Of a stretch of DNA of 64,000 nt, positions 53,044 to 63,639 are shown in pieces. The translations under genes were made by a program, and so were the position numbers. How positions within the stretch are numbered: position 1 is the first letter of the stretch; every line of letters starts with the position of its first letter. Source of the stretch: Spirochaetales bacterium (GTDB lineage Bacteria; Spirochaetota; Leptospiria; Leptospirales; Leptonemataceae); assembly GCA_015075425.1 (NCBI GenBank), contig JABTUL010000001.1, forward strand, positions 2,108,001 through 2,172,000, given 5' to 3'. The notes beneath the pieces were generated by a model. That model searched no databases. It saw only the letters and a program-made list of their open reading frames with translations, and was not told the origin of the DNA.

Positions 53044-54681
53044 CTACTTCAAGCGCCGCATGTAGGTGCGCACAGCAGGCCTGCTAATGGAAAATCGTGC
53101 GGTGTAGGTTCCTGGCTCTTTTTCTTGCAGATCAATCAGATCGCCCTGTTGATCGATGTAACGCTTCAGGTCCCTTTTCGCCGAATCGCTCAGGTTTGCT
53201 CCCCGATTCTCGGTGAGCAAAATATTGTAGGCTTTTCTGGCTGCATCAGCGCGGCAGCGGGACTGCGCTTCCCGCATGGATGAGGCAAAGACGGTAACAA
53301 AAACCTCATAGCGGTCCTCTGCACCCGAGCGGCTGGTGGAACCCTCTCCACGCACGGCACTGCCGCTGACGGCAGTGCCGGAGCGTTTCAGTTCGGCATA
53401 CTCCCGGCTGCGTCCCTGAACGATTTCACTGGCTACCGATTTTTCCTCTGCGCGACCCCTTACGCTGCTTTCCGGCGCATCGATCCTTTGCTTGCTCCGG
53501 CTGCGCTCCGGGCTTCTACCGGCAGTCGATCCAGCAGCGGCTACCACGGTTCCCCGCGATGCATTCCCTTCAGGGTTAAGGACTGTCCTATCCCTTGCGG
53601 TTGGACCGGCCGTGGATAAACTGCCCGATGCATTTCTCTCGGATTTTTTTTCCGCTTCCCGCGACCCGGCAGTCCCGGCTCTGGACGCAGTCTCCCGGGG
53701 ACCGCTTAGAACAGCCACCGGGCCGGCAGCCCCCTCTGCTTTCGCCGGTGCCAAGGATTTCCGTCCCTCGGATTTTCCCAATTCCGGATTTTCCTGGCCC
53801 ATGGCTGCCACCGAACTACCCGGTCCATTTTCCCGACCCCGGCTGGCTGAACCTGGAAGGCCTGGCCCCCCGCTAGCCGATCCGGGGCTTCCAGCCCTTG
53901 ATTCGATGGCCACGCTTTCTTTGCCCTCCCGTGAACCGGGGCCGGCCTGGTCCGAGGAACCGGCTTGATCCGATGAACGGGAAGAGGCCGGCGGGACGCT
54001 CCGGGATTCGCCGGGGCCCGCCGCGGCATTCCCTGGCCCGGCTCCCGGACTGGCGGTAGATCTTGCCGCGCTGGCCGCTGCTGTTCGACCGGACGATGGC
54101 CCGGATATTCGATCTTCCATCTTTTCCGCCGCATCGCCAGCCACTCCGTCCTCTGTGGCTCCCGATCCAGCCCGTGCCCCTGAAGAATCTCTGGAATCTC
54201 CAGAGTCGCCTGTCGCGGACTCCCTCTCCACGGTTGCGGTTGCATCGCCTGGGCCTTCGTTAGAAGGTTGAGCACTGGCTCGATCAGCAGTCCGCCTCGT
54301 ATTTCCTGAATTTTCTGAATTCTCAGTCCTCTCTCGCTCTGCACTTTCGCGGTTATCGCCGCTTTCTACGGAAAGCTCCCGCCCCTCCGTGGCAGCAAAA
54401 TGGTCGCGAGAGCCGTCTGTGGCTCCAGCAGCGGACGGCCCGGCCGCCGGATCGGGTTTGGATGACACCGCAGCACGGGAAACATTGGTCTCCAGGGTCC
54501 GGGAAATCTCCGCAACCCTTTCCATTTCCCGGGCCGCTTCCGCGCGGGCCTGTTCCGCAGCCCGTAATACGGGAGCTGCCGCTTGATCTTCACGCAGGAC
54601 CGGCTTTTTTTCCGGAACAGGAGATCGACAGGCAAAAATCCAGAGCAGGAGTAAATAGAAAAATGCGGGGAAAATGGGCAT
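53044..54681 (-). CDS. Lipoprotein with a long disordered region
   Basis: 545 residues from the ATG at 54681 (PIFPAFFYLLLLWIFAC, a lipobox with cysteine at 18). Residues about 20-60 are helical, then roughly 380 residues of low complexity rich in Ser, Gly, Ala, Arg, Glu and Pro, including a tandem SSDQAG pair. The last 95 residues are folded (YEVFVTVFASSMREAQ to TYTARFSISRPAV). It looks like an anchored stalk with a C-terminal head. I do not recognise the family. Confidence 0.72.
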   Translation of the reverse strand: MPIFPAFFYLLLLWIFACRSPVPEKKPVLREDQAAAPVLRAAEQARAEAAREMERVAEISRTLETNVSRAAVSSKPDPAAGPSAAGATDGSRDHFAATEGRELSVESGDNRESAERERTENSENSGNTRRTADRASAQPSNEGPGDATATVERESATGDSGDSRDSSGARAGSGATEDGVAGDAAEKMEDRISGPSSGRTAAASAARSTASPGAGPGNAAAGPGESRSVPPASSRSSDQAGSSDQAGPGSREGKESVAIESRAGSPGSASGGPGLPGSASRGRENGPGSSVAAMGQENPELGKSEGRKSLAPAKAEGAAGPVAVLSGPRETASRAGTAGSREAEKKSERNASGSLSTAGPTARDRTVLNPEGNASRGTVVAAAGSTAGRSPERSRSKQRIDAPESSVRGRAEEKSVASEIVQGRSREYAELKRSGTAVSGSAVRGEGSTSRSGAEDRYEVFVTVFASSMREAQSRCRADAARKAYNILLTENRGANLSDSAKRDLKRYIDQQGDLIDLQEKEPGTYTARFSISRPAVRTYMRRLK

Positions 54682-54739
54682 GATAACCTGCCTGGCCCGG
54701 GATTCAGGAAAAGGCAAGGAAAACCACCGGGATCATGGA

Positions 54740-55901: not shown

Positions 55902-58856
55902 TCAAAAATTGAATCCGAGCGAAAATTGACCCCGCCATTTATTGGGCGGCAGGGATCTTTTGCCGTCATAGGGTGTGGCCCATTCAATTTTCATCACCGC
56001 TCCTGGTAAAAAAGGCCAGAGAAAATTGGGCCAGTGAACACCGGCTCCGTAGCTCAGGTACAGATCCCGGGTCACTCCGTACTTTCGGGAAAAGCCCTGA
56101 AAGCTCTGTGGATCATCAAAAGCTGATCCGGCATCGGCAAAAAGTACTCCGCGGATTCCACGCAGCGCAAGACGAAACGGAAAACCCAGCTGCAGATACT
56201 CAATGAAGGCAAAGCGATACTCCAGATTCAAAAGAAAAGCGTGCCGTCCCTCCAGTTCCAGAAATCTGTAACCACGCAAAGTCGCGTAGCCACCCAGTCG
56301 AAAAGGATACAGGTCGGAATCGGCACCGGAACGCGAGCCCAGGAACGCACGGAACGCAAATAACGAAAAATCAGAAAATAGATGATAAAAACGGTATTCC
56401 ATTAAAAACTGGTTCAGTCGACGGTCCTCGCCGGAAAAACGCAGAGGCTCACTGAAGGAAATATAAAAGGACTGACCATCAAGCGGCCCATAAATCGTAT
56501 GGACGGCAGAGCTGAAGCGATACTCCACGCTTAACTGCTGGTAGTTCTGGAAGACATCTTCCTGGTCTCTCTCTTCCGGTAGGGGCGGTAAAAATTCCTG
56601 TTCCAGGCGGCCCTGATCATAGACAAGGCCGATGGCCGCAAATCGGTGCAGCGGATATTCCATCCCGGCGTATATACCCGCGCCCTCCTGGGCCGCCATG
56701 CGGAAAAAAGGATTGTAGATGACTTCATTTAAACTTAGATCGAGAGGATTTAACACGGCAAACGTTCCGCTCTTGCGGAATGCCCCGGCATAAAGATCCA
56801 TTCGGTACGGTGTAAAGCTGTAGCGCGCATCCAGATCCAGGTTGCGCGAATTGACTTTGTCCGGTTCTTCCCCGGCAGCAAAGTAACTGGTAAAAAATTG
56901 AACACGATGATCACCGGTAAAATCCGCCAGACTGGCAAATCCCAGCAGAGCCCAGTTGATTTTTCCCGATCCACTGCTGCCGCCGGTCAAAATCAAGAAA
57001 GGCGGCCCTTCTGTATGTAGAAAAGGCCGATAAGCCTCGACCTGGCTTACGGCAACAGGCGGGGCCTCAGGAAATACAGAATCTTGAACGTTCGACAGAA
57101 GTGGCTTCGCTTCAAAGACCAGCTCTGGACGGTAAAAGACGGTTTCTTTTACGCCATCGGCCTCAACCCAGAGCAGGCCGGACGATTCATGACTGGCAAA
57201 GGATCGAACACTGCCTGGCCGGGCTGTGATGGCCCGCAAATCGCGCGGGCCCACCGGTTTGTGCAGATTCTCAGCGGGAATCAAGAAGAGGTTTCCCGCA
57301 CCCTGTCCCCTGGCCCGGACAATGAGTCCGCTGGCAGCCGGAGCCGGAGCGTGGATGCTAAATGGTAATTCGGTTACCTTTTGCGGCTCTTGACCGGGTG
57401 CAAGCAAGCGATAGAGCGCTTCGGGCCCGCGATCGCAGGCCGCGACAAAATAGAGGATGCCCTGAAAAAAAACCGGATCCTTTTCGTAGCAGAGCGATTG
57501 CGTCCAGGCAACCAGGCTTTCCGTCTTAGTATCATACAGGTAAAGATCCGCCTGCCCTCGGGTAACTCCGGTCAGCACCACCTGCTGCCCATCCGGGGTA
57601 TAGGCGGGATGGTGGATTCCGTCCAGGGGTAAGGGACGGCTCTCGCGGATCTTCTTTCCCTGGATATCCACTAAAAGTAAACTTTGCTTACCATAACTGC
57701 GACCGGACAGAAGGAGCATCTGACCATCGGGCCTGAACGATATTCTGGTGGAAAGGGGCTGCCACTCTTCATAGCGACCGCTTTGCAGGGCGCGAAGCTT
57801 CAGCCGCATCCGGCGCACATGTCCCTTTTCCCGGCCCGGCCCGGGGATATCGGAAATGGCCAGCACCGGTGTTACGCCCACAACAGTCAAATAGGCCATC
57901 GTGCGGCCGTCGGGTGAAATGGCGGGGGACAGATGCAAGGAGCGATCATCGGCAAGGACGCGGAGCGTGGGGTCTGCTCTTCTATCCGCAGCCAGTTCCA
58001 CAGCGTAGACACCCTGTAAATAACTGGTATACTCTATTTGCAATGAGTCCATGCTTTTTCCGCTGAGATGAAAGAATGCCTCAGACAGCCGACGGCCGGC
58101 TTTCAGCTCAAGTAGCAGATGAGCAAGTCGCAACGTTCCATAGCGCTCCGTAAAAAAGGTTAGAAAGCTCTGGCCCATTTTGTAGTGGTAATAACCAGGA
58201 ACGCGGCCGGAAAATAGAGCACTTAAAGGCGGAGTCTCCCCCGACACCACAAGCGGACGCATGAATTCATGCATGGAATCGTCGCTGAAGGGACTGAGCA
58301 ATTCCGCCATTCCCTCCATCAACCATAGCGGGTAGCGGCCGTAATTTTCCTGCACCATACTCAGTGCAAAAGCATGTACGATCTCGTGAGACAGTACGTG
58401 CTCGAGAGCGCGGTAGTCGCCATGAAAGGGCACGACAACTCGCCGATGAAAAAAATCCGTAAATCCTCCCGTGGCTTCATCGAGAGGAAAGGGCAGAATA
58501 TTCCCGGCTGTAAAATCCTGGCGTGAGGGATAGAGAAAAACCGGTATGAGTTCAGCAACTTCATGCTGAAAAGTTTGCCGCATGCGCGCATAGGCCGCCT
58601 CACAGAAGCGTGCCGCTGCCATACCCATAGCATAGTTACCATCCGGATAGTGAATCCGGAAATGCTCTGTTTCCAGAATGAGCCAGCGCACGGAAGTCGC
58701 CGGTATTTTGAAGTGTGCCTGGATAGATTCCGTTACAATTAAGTTGACCCAGCAAGCCAGAAGAAGCGCCTGCAATCGTGTCCTCAAAACGGATCCGGCT
58801 TTTTCTCTTTTCTGGCCTGCTTTTCTGCCTGGCCCTCTTCCTTGCCGCCATCCCAT
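55902..58856 (-). CDS. Secreted metalloprotease, beta-propeller and outer-membrane beta-barrel fusion
   Basis: Up to 984 residues. After a signal peptide (residues about 24-46) comes a peptidase-MA-like domain with HEIVH at 157-161 and a likely third zinc ligand Glu181 in WLMEGMAE. Residues about 285-600 contain TolB/PD40 propeller repeats (LSPAISPDGRTMAYL, FRPDGQMLLLSG, YTPDGQQVVLTG). The last 350 residues look like an Omp85-type barrel with TLRGYRFLELEGRH, LFADAGSAF and a C-terminal phenylalanine (GQFSLGFNF). The start is uncertain: ATG at 58856 overlaps the divergent gene by 79 bases; TTG at 58787 would nearly remove the overlap. Confidence 0.82.
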   Translation of the reverse strand: MGWRQGRGPGRKAGQKREKAGSVLRTRLQALLLACWVNLIVTESIQAHFKIPATSVRWLILETEHFRIHYPDGNYAMGMAAARFCEAAYARMRQTFQHEVAELIPVFLYPSRQDFTAGNILPFPLDEATGGFTDFFHRRVVVPFHGDYRALEHVLSHEIVHAFALSMVQENYGRYPLWLMEGMAELLSPFSDDSMHEFMRPLVVSGETPPLSALFSGRVPGYYHYKMGQSFLTFFTERYGTLRLAHLLLELKAGRRLSEAFFHLSGKSMDSLQIEYTSYLQGVYAVELAADRRADPTLRVLADDRSLHLSPAISPDGRTMAYLTVVGVTPVLAISDIPGPGREKGHVRRMRLKLRALQSGRYEEWQPLSTRISFRPDGQMLLLSGRSYGKQSLLLVDIQGKKIRESRPLPLDGIHHPAYTPDGQQVVLTGVTRGQADLYLYDTKTESLVAWTQSLCYEKDPVFFQGILYFVAACDRGPEALYRLLAPGQEPQKVTELPFSIHAPAPAASGLIVRARGQGAGNLFLIPAENLHKPVGPRDLRAITARPGSVRSFASHESSGLLWVEADGVKETVFYRPELVFEAKPLLSNVQDSVFPEAPPVAVSQVEAYRPFLHTEGPPFLILTGGSSGSGKINWALLGFASLADFTGDHRVQFFTSYFAAGEEPDKVNSRNLDLDARYSFTPYRMDLYAGAFRKSGTFAVLNPLDLSLNEVIYNPFFRMAAQEGAGIYAGMEYPLHRFAAIGLVYDQGRLEQEFLPPLPEERDQEDVFQNYQQLSVEYRFSSAVHTIYGPLDGQSFYISFSEPLRFSGEDRRLNQFLMEYRFYHLFSDFSLFAFRAFLGSRSGADSDLYPFRLGGYATLRGYRFLELEGRHAFLLNLEYRFAFIEYLQLGFPFRLALRGIRGVLFADAGSAFDDPQSFQGFSRKYGVTRDLYLSYGAGVHWPNFLWPFLPGAVMKIEWATPYDGKRSLPPNKWRGQFSLGFNF

Positions 58857-60946
58857 TCGTTGAACGTCACCTTGAAAAGGAGCTGCAGGTCACCGAGCTC
58901 AAAAATCGCATCATGGCCACGGTAAAATCAAGCAGCCCTTATGCACTCAAAATCCAGGGAGTACGGTTTTCTCTCATTGACGGGATCATCTTCTCCGGAG
59001 TCGAGTTGAGCCTGGAACGGGGTCCGGTCCTCTTTCATGCAGAAAATGTTCTTTTACGATTATCGATCTGGAAGGCCCTGCGCGGAGAAGACCCACTGCA
59101 TGAAGTGTACATCCCCTCCGGCTCGCTGTATCCGGTCCGTATGCATCGAGAAAGAAAGACCCTGAACAAAGCCCTCCCGGTAGACCTCTTGAAGAATCGC
59201 AATATTCGCATAACCGGCCTTGAGCTGATCCTGCCCGGTGAAGCTCGCTTTGTCCGTCCGGTGGCCCGGGTGCTGATTCAGCCATCGGTAGACCAGGCCC
59301 GTCTGAGCGGTGAAATTACCTCGCGACTGGAAGGCGAGAATGCTCGCGTTACGTTCCACGGCAATTTTATCTATAATGCCAGGAGCCGATTTTTCTTTGA
59401 ATTTGTCAACATCGGCTCGCGGCTCACCCGTTACGGACTGAAAGCGTCTCCGCTTTTTTCCGATGATTTCCGCACCTTCAGCCGATTCATCCGCCTCGAA
59501 CACGATCCGTTGCAAGGAAAGGGCAGTTTCGACTATGAAGCCGGCAAACTGGCCATCAACCTTGAGGGTCAGTTTGAGAAGCTGAACCTGCAATTTTTCC
59601 GCAGAGACCGCCTGGCCATTGAAGCGAATGACCAGAACGGAACCTTCCGCTACAACGCTGGATTTTCCAGCATTCAGGAGTTCGCCGATTTTTTTGACTT
59701 TCAGCTCACATCCCCGGACCTGGGAACCCAGATTCGCTACCGCAGTCCAGCCCTCGCCGGCGGGCATGAATACAGATTTGATCTGACGCTGGCTGAAGGC
59801 GCGGAAATGATTTTTGGCGGACTGCCTGCGCGCGGGCAGTTGCGCCTCAGCTCCCAGCTCAGTTACAACAAACGCGAAGAAATCACACCCGAACTGGATC
59901 TGACCATTCAGAGTCTGCGGGTGGATCTATCCAGTATTTATCCGGGTGAGTTTTCCAGCATCGATCTCAAGGGGATCATCAAGCAGTCCGCCGGCGAGAT
60001 GCGCTCCACTCTGGACGGGGCCTTGCTGGGATTTCCGCTCAGTGCCCGCGGCGAAGGCAAAATTACTTTTGATCCGGTGCGGCTCGATGATCTGCCCCTT
60101 CACGCTCTGTGGCAGAAGCATAAATGGAAACTGAAGCTCGAAGAGGTTGCCTACGATCGCGTGGTTTCCTTTGTGGGTGCGGTGGTATCCGGGATCTACA
60201 GCGCGGCCCACGCTCGCAACGCTCGCAGAGCGGAAGACTCCGGCCCGCTGTGGCGCACCTCTTTTACGGACAGGCGCATCTATCAGCTTTATTTAAAATA
60301 CCTTACCTTTGACGGGGAACTGGAACTCCGGGCAAAATCCCCTTCCAGCTTCCCGGAAGTAATCCTGGCCGATTTTGGCAAAACTCAGGCAAGCTATCAA
60401 TTTAACATACCCACGGCCAGAGGAAACGATGCCAGCGTCTACCTGCGCTACTACGGGACGTTTGATGCAACCATGCCCCGCCACGACCTGCGTCTGGAAT
60501 TGAACTTAAACAAAAATGCCTATGAATTGCCTGGCACCCGTTTGCGTCCGGCAAGGCTCAACCTCAATTATCATATTTCCGGCAGCGGCTGGTATCCGTA
60601 TGACCTCGTTTTCTGGACTCACAGCACAATGAATCTTACCATGCGGGATGTGGATCTAAGCTCACTTGGCCCGGCCCGTATCTTACTCTACAGCATGGGT
60701 CAGCCTGATCGTGAAGCCCGGGCCAGCCTTGTGTCCATCGCACGGCGCACCCAGGCCGGATACATTGATTTCACCAATATCCGTGTAGAAGCTCCATCCT
60801 TTGAAGCGGATGGCAGCGCTTCTTTTGAGAGCGATCTTCAGGGAAAGATGCAGCTCCGTTATGTGTTTGACGAAAATGGAACAAGGAAACGCGACACTGT
60901 GGAAATGCGCACAACCGATCAAGGACGCTGGATCCCCGATGAATGA
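58778..60946 (+). CDS. AsmA-like inner-membrane-anchored protein
   Basis: 722 residues from a GTG. One N-terminal membrane segment (FLFSGLLFCLALFLAAIPFV) and then a long beta-rich periplasmic body. Phrases such as YALKIQGVRFSLIDGIIFSGVEL and VNIGSRLTRYGL are like AsmA/TamB-group proteins, thought to bridge membranes and move lipids. Its start overlaps the 5' region of the divergent protease-barrel gene, and an outer-membrane partner on the opposite strand fits an envelope role. Confidence 0.82.
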   Translation: MSSKRIRLFLFSGLLFCLALFLAAIPFVERHLEKELQVTELKNRIMATVKSSSPYALKIQGVRFSLIDGIIFSGVELSLERGPVLFHAENVLLRLSIWKALRGEDPLHEVYIPSGSLYPVRMHRERKTLNKALPVDLLKNRNIRITGLELILPGEARFVRPVARVLIQPSVDQARLSGEITSRLEGENARVTFHGNFIYNARSRFFFEFVNIGSRLTRYGLKASPLFSDDFRTFSRFIRLEHDPLQGKGSFDYEAGKLAINLEGQFEKLNLQFFRRDRLAIEANDQNGTFRYNAGFSSIQEFADFFDFQLTSPDLGTQIRYRSPALAGGHEYRFDLTLAEGAEMIFGGLPARGQLRLSSQLSYNKREEITPELDLTIQSLRVDLSSIYPGEFSSIDLKGIIKQSAGEMRSTLDGALLGFPLSARGEGKITFDPVRLDDLPLHALWQKHKWKLKLEEVAYDRVVSFVGAVVSGIYSAAHARNARRAEDSGPLWRTSFTDRRIYQLYLKYLTFDGELELRAKSPSSFPEVILADFGKTQASYQFNIPTARGNDASVYLRYYGTFDATMPRHDLRLELNLNKNAYELPGTRLRPARLNLNYHISGSGWYPYDLVFWTHSTMNLTMRDVDLSSLGPARILLYSMGQPDREARASLVSIARRTQAGYIDFTNIRVEAPSFEADGSASFESDLQGKMQLRYVFDENGTRKRDTVEMRTTDQGRWIPDE

Positions 60947-61361: not shown

Positions 61362-61967
61362 ATGCAGCTGGCGGACGTATTCAAGGACAGGGTCTTTACC
61401 TTATCCAACCTTCTTTCTTTTTTGCGGCCTTTTCTCCTGCCGCCCTTCCTTTACTACAGCAAGATCTATCACCTCGATTACAGCCCCACGACCCTTGTGA
61501 TCCTGCTCATTATTGTGTTTCTGGCAACTATCAGCGATTTTCTCGACGGTTACCTGGCCCGCCGCTGGAAACAGGAATCACGATTGGGTCGCTACCTGGA
61601 TCCTGTAAGCGATAAGATAGTCACCACCGGCGCTCTGGCCACCCTTGTGGCCTACTTTGACTTTCCCTTCTGGATTTTCATCGTGTATCTCCTGCGTGAA
61701 GCAGGTGGAATATGGGTGGGATACTTTCTCTTCTACCGCAGAAATCAGCAGGGCAAACCCAATTCTTGGGGCAAATGGGGTATGGGTCTGGCTTCCCTGA
61801 ACGTCCTCTGGTACATCTTAAAGCCGCAGCTTTTAATCTGGGATGCACCCGCTTTTTTCCAGTATCCTGAAATAGCGGCTTACGCTTTTCTTTTTGTTCT
61901 GGCCGGCGGAGCCATAGCCTATGCCCGCCAGTACGGGCGGATCATTTTCCATCCGGAGAAACAATAG
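61362..61967 (+). CDS. pgsA: CDP-alcohol phosphatidyltransferase (PgsA-like)
   Basis: 201 residues from the ATG at 61362. The CDP-alcohol motif is complete: Asp59, Asp62-Gly63, Ala66-Arg67, Gly76, Asp80 and Asp84 in the order D-x2-DG-x2-AR-x8-G-x3-D-x3-D. Several membrane segments surround it. Most likely makes phosphatidylglycerol phosphate from CDP-diacylglycerol; phosphatidylcholine or cardiolipin variants of the family cannot be excluded. The long upstream open frame overlaps the lipoprotein gene and is not used. Confidence 0.88.
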   Translation: MQLADVFKDRVFTLSNLLSFLRPFLLPPFLYYSKIYHLDYSPTTLVILLIIVFLATISDFLDGYLARRWKQESRLGRYLDPVSDKIVTTGALATLVAYFDFPFWIFIVYLLREAGGIWVGYFLFYRRNQQGKPNSWGKWGMGLASLNVLWYILKPQLLIWDAPAFFQYPEIAAYAFLFVLAGGAIAYARQYGRIIFHPEKQ

Positions 61968-61986
61968 AAATCCGATATTCATAGAG

Positions 61987-63639
61987 ATGCGCTCTTACTT
62001 CGTTGTCGCCTTGCTGCTACTTGGCAGTCTATCCGCTTCAAAGCAACTGGAGAATGGCAGCACCGTCAGCCCGACTTTCCAGAACCTGGAACATCAGGGA
62101 ACAGAGATTTTTCGCAGTCAAGATAACACGGAAGATATTCGGCTCAGCCGTTCGCTCAGTGGACAAAAGGCCGATGAGCTGCTGGATCTGGATTTTGAGA
62201 CGGAGCATCCGGCCACTCTGCGAGATGAAGCCGGTCGTTTTCAGATCCGGCAATCCAGCTATATCAGATCGGCCGACGCAAGGATGGGCCATGCCGCCGC
62301 CCTGTTCAGCCGCAAAGAGCATCGCATCGTTATCGATTCTCCGGCTCAGGTCTGGCCCTTCAGCGGATCACTCCAGAGCTTCAGTGTGCAGATGTGGATC
62401 AAACCGCTGCACTTCTTTGCCCGCAGCAGCCTGTTCAAACGTGAACTTCCGGACCTGGCTTTCCGGCAGGGCCGGGACCGCAGATTCGAACTCTACATCA
62501 AAAATGAAATTCTCGTGGCCGATTTTCAAAATGTTTTTCAAATCGACGACAGGCCCGTCCCAGTACTGCTGACTTCGCGCAGCAAAATCCCCATTGGACG
62601 GTGGACTCACGTAACTGCCTCCTACGATGAAACAAACGGCACGGTCAGCCTGTTCATCAATGGCGAAGAGCATCAGGTAGAAAAATTGCCCATTGGAGCA
62701 CGGGCCTTCATCAGTGAAAGAGATCGCTCGCCTATCGTTCTATGCGAAAACTACTCCGGACTGATGGATGAACTCAATCTTTCCCGGGGAACACCGCTTC
62801 CGCAAAGCAGCAGTTACGGACAACTTCACATGGAACACAACAGGCCGGTTCAGGCAGAGGGCATAGCCCGCTCCTCGGTGGAAAAACTACCGGAAGTAGC
62901 AGAAAGGGCCAGAATCTCCTACCGCTCTGAAGTTCCGGAGGGATCGGTGCTTCAAGTGTACTTTCGATCCTCGCTGCGTCCTTTTGATTCTGATACAAAA
63001 GAAAATCTATTGCCCTGGAAAATCTTTTACGACCGGACCGGACCTTTGCAACCTTTTCAATACTATCAGTGGAAAGCTGTATTCAAAGCCGATGCAAAGG
63101 GAAAGCAAAGCCCGGTATTGAAGTCTGTTTTTCTGAGCTATGATCCGGCTCGTGCTCCAGATCCGGTCCAGGATCTGCGCCTCGTTCCCGGATTTTCCCG
63201 CGATGAACAGGTTTGCCTGGAATGGAGCCTGCTCCCGGAAACCGAAGGAGCGGTCCGCTACGAAATCTACTACGGCTACCATCCTGATGAAATGGTGGGA
63301 CTCATCGCCTCCATGCGCCGCGAAGGTCTTCCTGCCCCGATTGTCCGCCTGAATGCCACACTTCTGCCGCAGAATGAAGAAGACAAAAGGCAGCGCGATC
63401 GCATCCGCGATCCCTCGCTCTTTTTGTACAACAAAATGCGTTTGATCATTGATAACAATCTCCTATCAATGAACATGGCCCGGAATCGGCAGCGCAGCAT
63501 GCCTTTTCTTGAGAATGGCCGGGTAGTGTATTTCAAAGTGGTTGCAGTAAAGAGCAATCCCGTGGAACTGCGATCCGCACCTTCCCGGACTGTGTCTGTG
63601 GAGCTGCGAGCCAGATCCGATTCCGGAAATGGATTTTAG
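61987..63639 (+). CDS. Secreted LamG/concanavalin-like protein
   Basis: 550 residues from the ATG at 61987, with a signal peptide (SYFVVALLLLGSLSAS). Residues about 115-270 look like a LamG/concanavalin-type jelly roll: FSVQMWIKPLHFFARSSLF, GRWTHVTASYDE, SLFINGEEHQVE. A later part near 400-470 resembles a fibronectin type III fold (DPVQDLRLVPGFS). It probably binds carbohydrate or protein outside the cell. It starts 19 bases after pgsA. Confidence 0.75.
   Translation: MRSYFVVALLLLGSLSASKQLENGSTVSPTFQNLEHQGTEIFRSQDNTEDIRLSRSLSGQKADELLDLDFETEHPATLRDEAGRFQIRQSSYIRSADARMGHAAALFSRKEHRIVIDSPAQVWPFSGSLQSFSVQMWIKPLHFFARSSLFKRELPDLAFRQGRDRRFELYIKNEILVADFQNVFQIDDRPVPVLLTSRSKIPIGRWTHVTASYDETNGTVSLFINGEEHQVEKLPIGARAFISERDRSPIVLCENYSGLMDELNLSRGTPLPQSSSYGQLHMEHNRPVQAEGIARSSVEKLPEVAERARISYRSEVPEGSVLQVYFRSSLRPFDSDTKENLLPWKIFYDRTGPLQPFQYYQWKAVFKADAKGKQSPVLKSVFLSYDPARAPDPVQDLRLVPGFSRDEQVCLEWSLLPETEGAVRYEIYYGYHPDEMVGLIASMRREGLPAPIVRLNATLLPQNEEDKRQRDRIRDPSLFLYNKMRLIIDNNLLSMNMARNRQRSMPFLENGRVVYFKVVAVKSNPVELRSAPSRTVSVELRARSDSGNGF

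Follow-up and report, generated by a model that had tools for sequence, protein, structure and literature searches.

A gluzincin-type peptidase domain, a TolB-like beta-propeller and an Omp85 barrel in a single chain of a Spirochaetales bacterium

Introduction

Several subfamilies of the Omp85 superfamily are without known function, and the WD40-like group was listed as not well characterised as recently as 2024 (PMC11116518). The WD40-Omp85 subfamily was described in 2014 by Heinz and Lithgow, whose main text gives it an N-terminal propeller and an Omp85 barrel without POTRA domains and likens it to BamA and BamB fused (PMC4104836). No peptidase domain is mentioned for this subfamily in the main text of that paper, which also names a 'Metallo' Omp85 subfamily, called Omp85-metalloproteases and defined by PF00149 (PMC4104836).

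Two other systems are relevant for comparison. In PlpD, an N-terminal enzyme domain is kept in the periplasm on an Omp85 barrel; secretion to the cell surface (type Vd) was the model first proposed for this protein, and was then tested and rejected (PMC11116518). BepA is a periplasmic zinc peptidase that directs LptD to assembly or degradation at the BAM complex (PMC8423444). Here we describe a protein that combines a zinc peptidase-like domain with the propeller and barrel of the WD40-Omp85 kind.

Gene and domain architecture

The window, meaning the whole stretch of 64,000 nucleotides that was analysed, contains the following features (window coordinates):

55902-58856, minus strand: whole gene, 984 aa, a single chain made up of zinc peptidase, beta-propeller and Omp85 barrel
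58713-58787, minus strand: signal-peptide-like segment, residues 24-48
57990-58685, minus strand: gluzincin-type peptidase domain, residues 58-289
58374-58388, minus strand: HEIVH zinc-binding motif, residues 157-161
58302-58316, minus strand: E181-G182-x-x-E185
57132-57932, minus strand: TolB-like beta-propeller, residues 309-575
55905-56999, minus strand: Omp85-type 16-stranded barrel, residues 620-984, with C-terminal Phe
56268-56276, minus strand: RGY motif (Omp85 loop-6 motif), residues 861-863
58778-60946, plus strand: divergent AsmA-like gene, 722 aa, with its 5' end overlapping the protease gene

The frame is open from ATG to stop over 984 codons. Residues 24-48 resemble a signal peptide in sequence and fall largely within a predicted N-terminal helix (residues 13-45 in the model); this segment would presumably be cleaved. 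The true start may be a TTG at residue 24 as an alternative to the ATG. With that start the protein would begin with an ordinary signal peptide and its gene would share about 10 bases with the AsmA-like gene in place of 79.

The first-pass annotation had read a zinc protease, a propeller and a barrel, in that order, in this one chain. Profile matches and an AlphaFold2 model bear this out, and we assign the three-domain architecture with high confidence; the agreement is far above chance. The domain limits first proposed (50-290, 285-640 and 640-984) were nearly right; the barrel begins at about residue 620, not 640. In the whole-chain model, built from an alignment of 35 homologues (mean pLDDT 81.9, pTM 0.81), residues 58-289 form helices and a small sheet, the strands of the propeller follow at 309-575, and another 16 strands lie between residues 620 and 982; the count of 16 barrel strands and the six blades of the propeller are our reading of the model strand list. 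In a Foldseek comparison of the whole model with the PDB, TamA/BamA barrels and TolB came out on top. The gene, the three domains (by profile and predicted structure), the conserved active site and the conserved single-chain order are supported directly.

The barrel is recognised by the Pfam family Omp85 (PF01103) over residues 788-984, with an E-value of 3.8e-9 and 36.9 bits, exceeding the curated cut-off of 24. The NCBIfam BamA profile also matches, well under its equivalog cut-off, which indicates likeness to BamA and not identity. The Arg of the RGY motif is kept in 34 of 35 homologues from the window's phylum, and RG followed by Y, F or H occurs in all 20 from the second phylum. LRGY at 860-863 and the terminal Phe, the motifs of Omp85 proteins, are conserved among the homologues with few exceptions. 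Based on the profile, the 16 strands and these motifs, the protein is a member of the Omp85 superfamily. The first-pass reading of an Omp85-like barrel ending in phenylalanine therefore holds for profile, model and Foldseek comparison; a predicted structure lacking a C-terminal barrel, which would have told against that reading, was looked for, and the barrel is predicted.

TolB-like repeats had been proposed for the middle of the chain, and here too the assignment is upheld, by TIGR02800, PD40, the strand pattern of the model and Foldseek matches to TolB. TIGR02800 (TolB, NCBIfam) matches with an E-value of 2.6e-10 and 39.8 bits, far under the equivalog cut-off of 343.15, so that we describe the domain as a TolB-like propeller and not as TolB. 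PD40 scores above its curated cut-off (Pfam), and a phmmer search against solved structures matched TolB over residues 304-495.

A Pfam scan of the protein at E-values up to 1 yielded no POTRA family, and also no patatin domain; in the model, propeller and barrel are no more than about 45 residues apart. Lack of POTRA separates the protein from BamA and TamA, and the combination of propeller, Omp85 barrel and no POTRA is that of the WD40-Omp85 subfamily as published (main text of PMC4104836). By architecture the protein is best filed with this kind, and its peptidase domain, reported here and not mentioned for that subfamily in the main text of the 2014 paper, is a feature deserving attention. 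The 'Metallo' subfamily of that main text is a metalloprotease group by name; its definition by PF00149 sets it apart from the window protein with its zinc peptidase. PF00149, as we understand it, covers calcineurin-like metallophosphatases and not zinc peptidases. PlpD resembles the window protein in that an enzyme domain precedes its Omp85 barrel, and offers a model for periplasmic tethering, but has a patatin lipase and one POTRA where the window protein has a zinc peptidase and a propeller.

Peptidase domain

The HEIVH motif with a downstream glutamate noticed in the sequence at first pass was located at residues 157-161 and at Glu181. The latter sits within W-L-M-E-G and is presumably the third zinc ligand, as in other gluzincins. 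Peptidase_MA_2 (PF13485) matches residues 100-280 of the window protein with an E-value of 5.2e-5 and 23.6 bits, against a curated cut-off of 32.4 (Pfam), and matches 32 of the 35 homologues, with E-values down to 3.8e-14. Modelled alone, the domain reaches a pLDDT of 91.7. Foldseek ranks the peptidase domains of clostridial collagenases H, G and T first (TM 0.61-0.70 by query), then M1 aminopeptidases, and a profile of the domain weakly finds collagenase-type and M1 aminopeptidase families by sequence too. The predicted fold, with HExxH and a downstream Glu, is that of a gluzincin.

Collagenase-type peptidases are secreted digestive enzymes. As these are the closest structural matches, and as several copies or matches per genome occur in the other phylum (Bacteroidota), the barrel could be imagined to export protease and propeller, so that the enzyme would digest external proteins at the cell surface, as first proposed for PlpD. 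We consider this unlikely, given that the type Vd model did not survive testing in PlpD itself (PMC11116518), that a 16-strand barrel is unlikely to let two folded domains pass, and that no cleavage or release signature was identified.

Conservation was assessed in 55 sequences, 35 from the window's phylum (including the window protein) and 20 from the phylum of a Bacteroidales record, L032. H157, E158, H161, E181 and E185 are invariant in all 55, as are the barrel residues R836, G855, G856, F906, D908, G937 and G939. Between the two phyla the peptidase shows 27-34% identity, the propeller 16-22% and the barrel 23-26%, making the peptidase the best conserved domain of the chain. Loss of the zinc ligands in homologues, which would have spoken against the first-pass reading of a zinc protease, was thus checked for and the ligands are kept throughout. 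That HExxH plus Glu is invariant, in the domain that is conserved best, speaks for an active enzyme and not a relic, and the pattern is as would be expected if the protease is the working part. We consider an inactive peptidase, with an N-terminal part that serves only for binding, highly improbable: related zincin families, BSP among them, do include substituted HExxH sites (PMC3650047), and the Peptidase_MA_2 score of the window protein lies under the cut-off, but neither a zinc ligand nor the general-base Glu is replaced in any of the 55 sequences.

Distribution and relatives

Matches were found in 41 of 61 genomes, own genome included, and in 30 of the 42 good assemblies. The homologues are nearly always single chains of about 930-1190 residues, and most members of the window's family and of its class have one. 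The existence of 34 single-chain homologues rules out a unique chain or a gene-fusion artefact. In a sample of Bacteroidota, about 88 of 148 genomes (about 60%, counted from our table) match at E below 1e-100. L032 itself, which had come from a scan of genome contigs, proved to be a chance match, with no such gene at the locus.

Profile searches recovered no three-part gene from the sister family in the same order; the matches there were limited to stretches of propeller, whose frames are mostly about 2,600 residues long, and a barrel apart from these. The plasmid collection yielded one relative only, WP_118831798.1 of Salinibacter ruber (L078:5932-7845; profile E 2.5e-120), annotated as 'basic secretory protein-like protein'. 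It has the protease and propeller of the window protein and no barrel, which suggests that a membrane anchor is not always needed.

The genome also encodes a diverged paralogue of 1010 aa (L069:7518-10550; G000:C1 about 807517-810549), in which HEYTH is followed by a propeller and a barrel-like end (whole-family profile E 1.6e-24). Relatives, too, have short matches of this kind. Also present is a BamA in a 1049-residue frame, named by its Omp85 score and length; given this separate BamA, the window protein is not the main assembly factor.

The initial impression that no described system has this exact set of domains did not hold up. Fusions of a propeller to an Omp85 barrel are published as a subfamily (main text of PMC4104836), the three-part chain occurs commonly in two phyla, and the second copy in the same genome has the same domain order. 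Public profile libraries recognise the domains in most relatives and, with the architecture this common, the surprise is moderate. In the literature covered, open-licence papers, we found no experimentally studied member.

Genomic context

The divergent gene is called AsmA-like on weak matches, its own to GspN_Lepto (NCBIfam) and those of its relatives to DUF748 and YhdP; its profile has no match in the PDB. Within the family, the 17 genomes with the protease gene all have the AsmA-like gene adjacent to it, divergent and overlapping, and these loci often keep a small gene that follows, as well as one resembling pgsA. Outside the family the AsmA-like neighbour occurs at 0 of 19 loci, some of them on short contigs. 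One family member (G012, L103:7297-9768) has the AsmA-like gene with no protease gene beside it; other family members have no full protease gene, and in these the AsmA-like gene is present only as fragments or is absent. The co-occurrence suggested by the first-pass annotation thus holds within the family and fails outside it. The loci outside the family and G012 rule out an obligate pairing, and the former indicate that the protease needs no such neighbour in general. Within the window's family, the two genes may be functionally linked.

This pairing raises another explanation, that the protein is mainly a component of outer-membrane assembly or of a lipid bridge, a TAM-like partner of the AsmA-like protein in which the protease would serve for trimming or gating. 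The constant arrangement in the family is consistent with this, as are the intact Omp85 barrel motifs and a search of the whole own genome in which no canonical TamB (PF04357) was found. We nevertheless regard it as quite unlikely, because the neighbour is missing from loci outside the family, because G012 has it with no protease gene alongside, because the POTRA, the part of TamA that binds TamB, is lacking, and because the peptidase is the most conserved domain.

Elsewhere in the window, positions 53044-54717 encode a 557-aa protein that is mostly Ser/Gly/Glu/Arg-rich low-complexity sequence, with a C-terminus like that of the Leptospira lipoprotein family LIC10766. Positions 61921-63639 encode a protein with a laminin-G-like (concanavalin A-like) domain; among the loci retrieved from neighbouring genomes it has no relatives.

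Proposed function

We propose that the protein is an outer-membrane-tethered periplasmic zinc endopeptidase involved in quality control or maturation of envelope proteins, an assignment to which we give an even chance. The Omp85-type barrel would be embedded in the outer membrane, its N-terminal side facing the periplasm, and the propeller and gluzincin domain would hang just under the membrane; this placement follows the periplasmic enzyme domain of PlpD (PMC11116518). A probable task of the propeller is to bind partner proteins or strands of the substrate; the protease would cut unfolded, misassembled or immature envelope proteins. Such a role would be comparable to that of BepA, likewise a zinc peptidase acting on an outer-membrane protein at BAM; the likeness is one of proposed role and not of membership, as BepA is a separate periplasmic protein of family M48 without a barrel. 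We infer the periplasmic side, catalytic activity, substrates and role by analogy, taking the orientation from other Omp85 proteins. Two observations count against the proposal: the predicted fold resembles the secreted, digestive collagenase-type peptidases as well as M1 aminopeptidases, and the Salinibacter homologue is without a barrel.

More tentatively, and with less than even confidence, we suggest that WD40-Omp85 proteins could largely be unrecognised outer-membrane-tethered zinc proteases, in which the barrel anchors a periplasmic gluzincin or acts as a gate that presents substrate to it. These would be widespread in Bacteroidota and the window's phylum, with a link to an AsmA-like bridge protein in the window's family. 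The protease site, invariant and located in the domain that is conserved best, points to a direct and testable activity for one of the Omp85 subfamilies without known function. If the proposal is true, Bacteroidota and Leptospira-related bacteria would have a dedicated zinc protease at the outer membrane.
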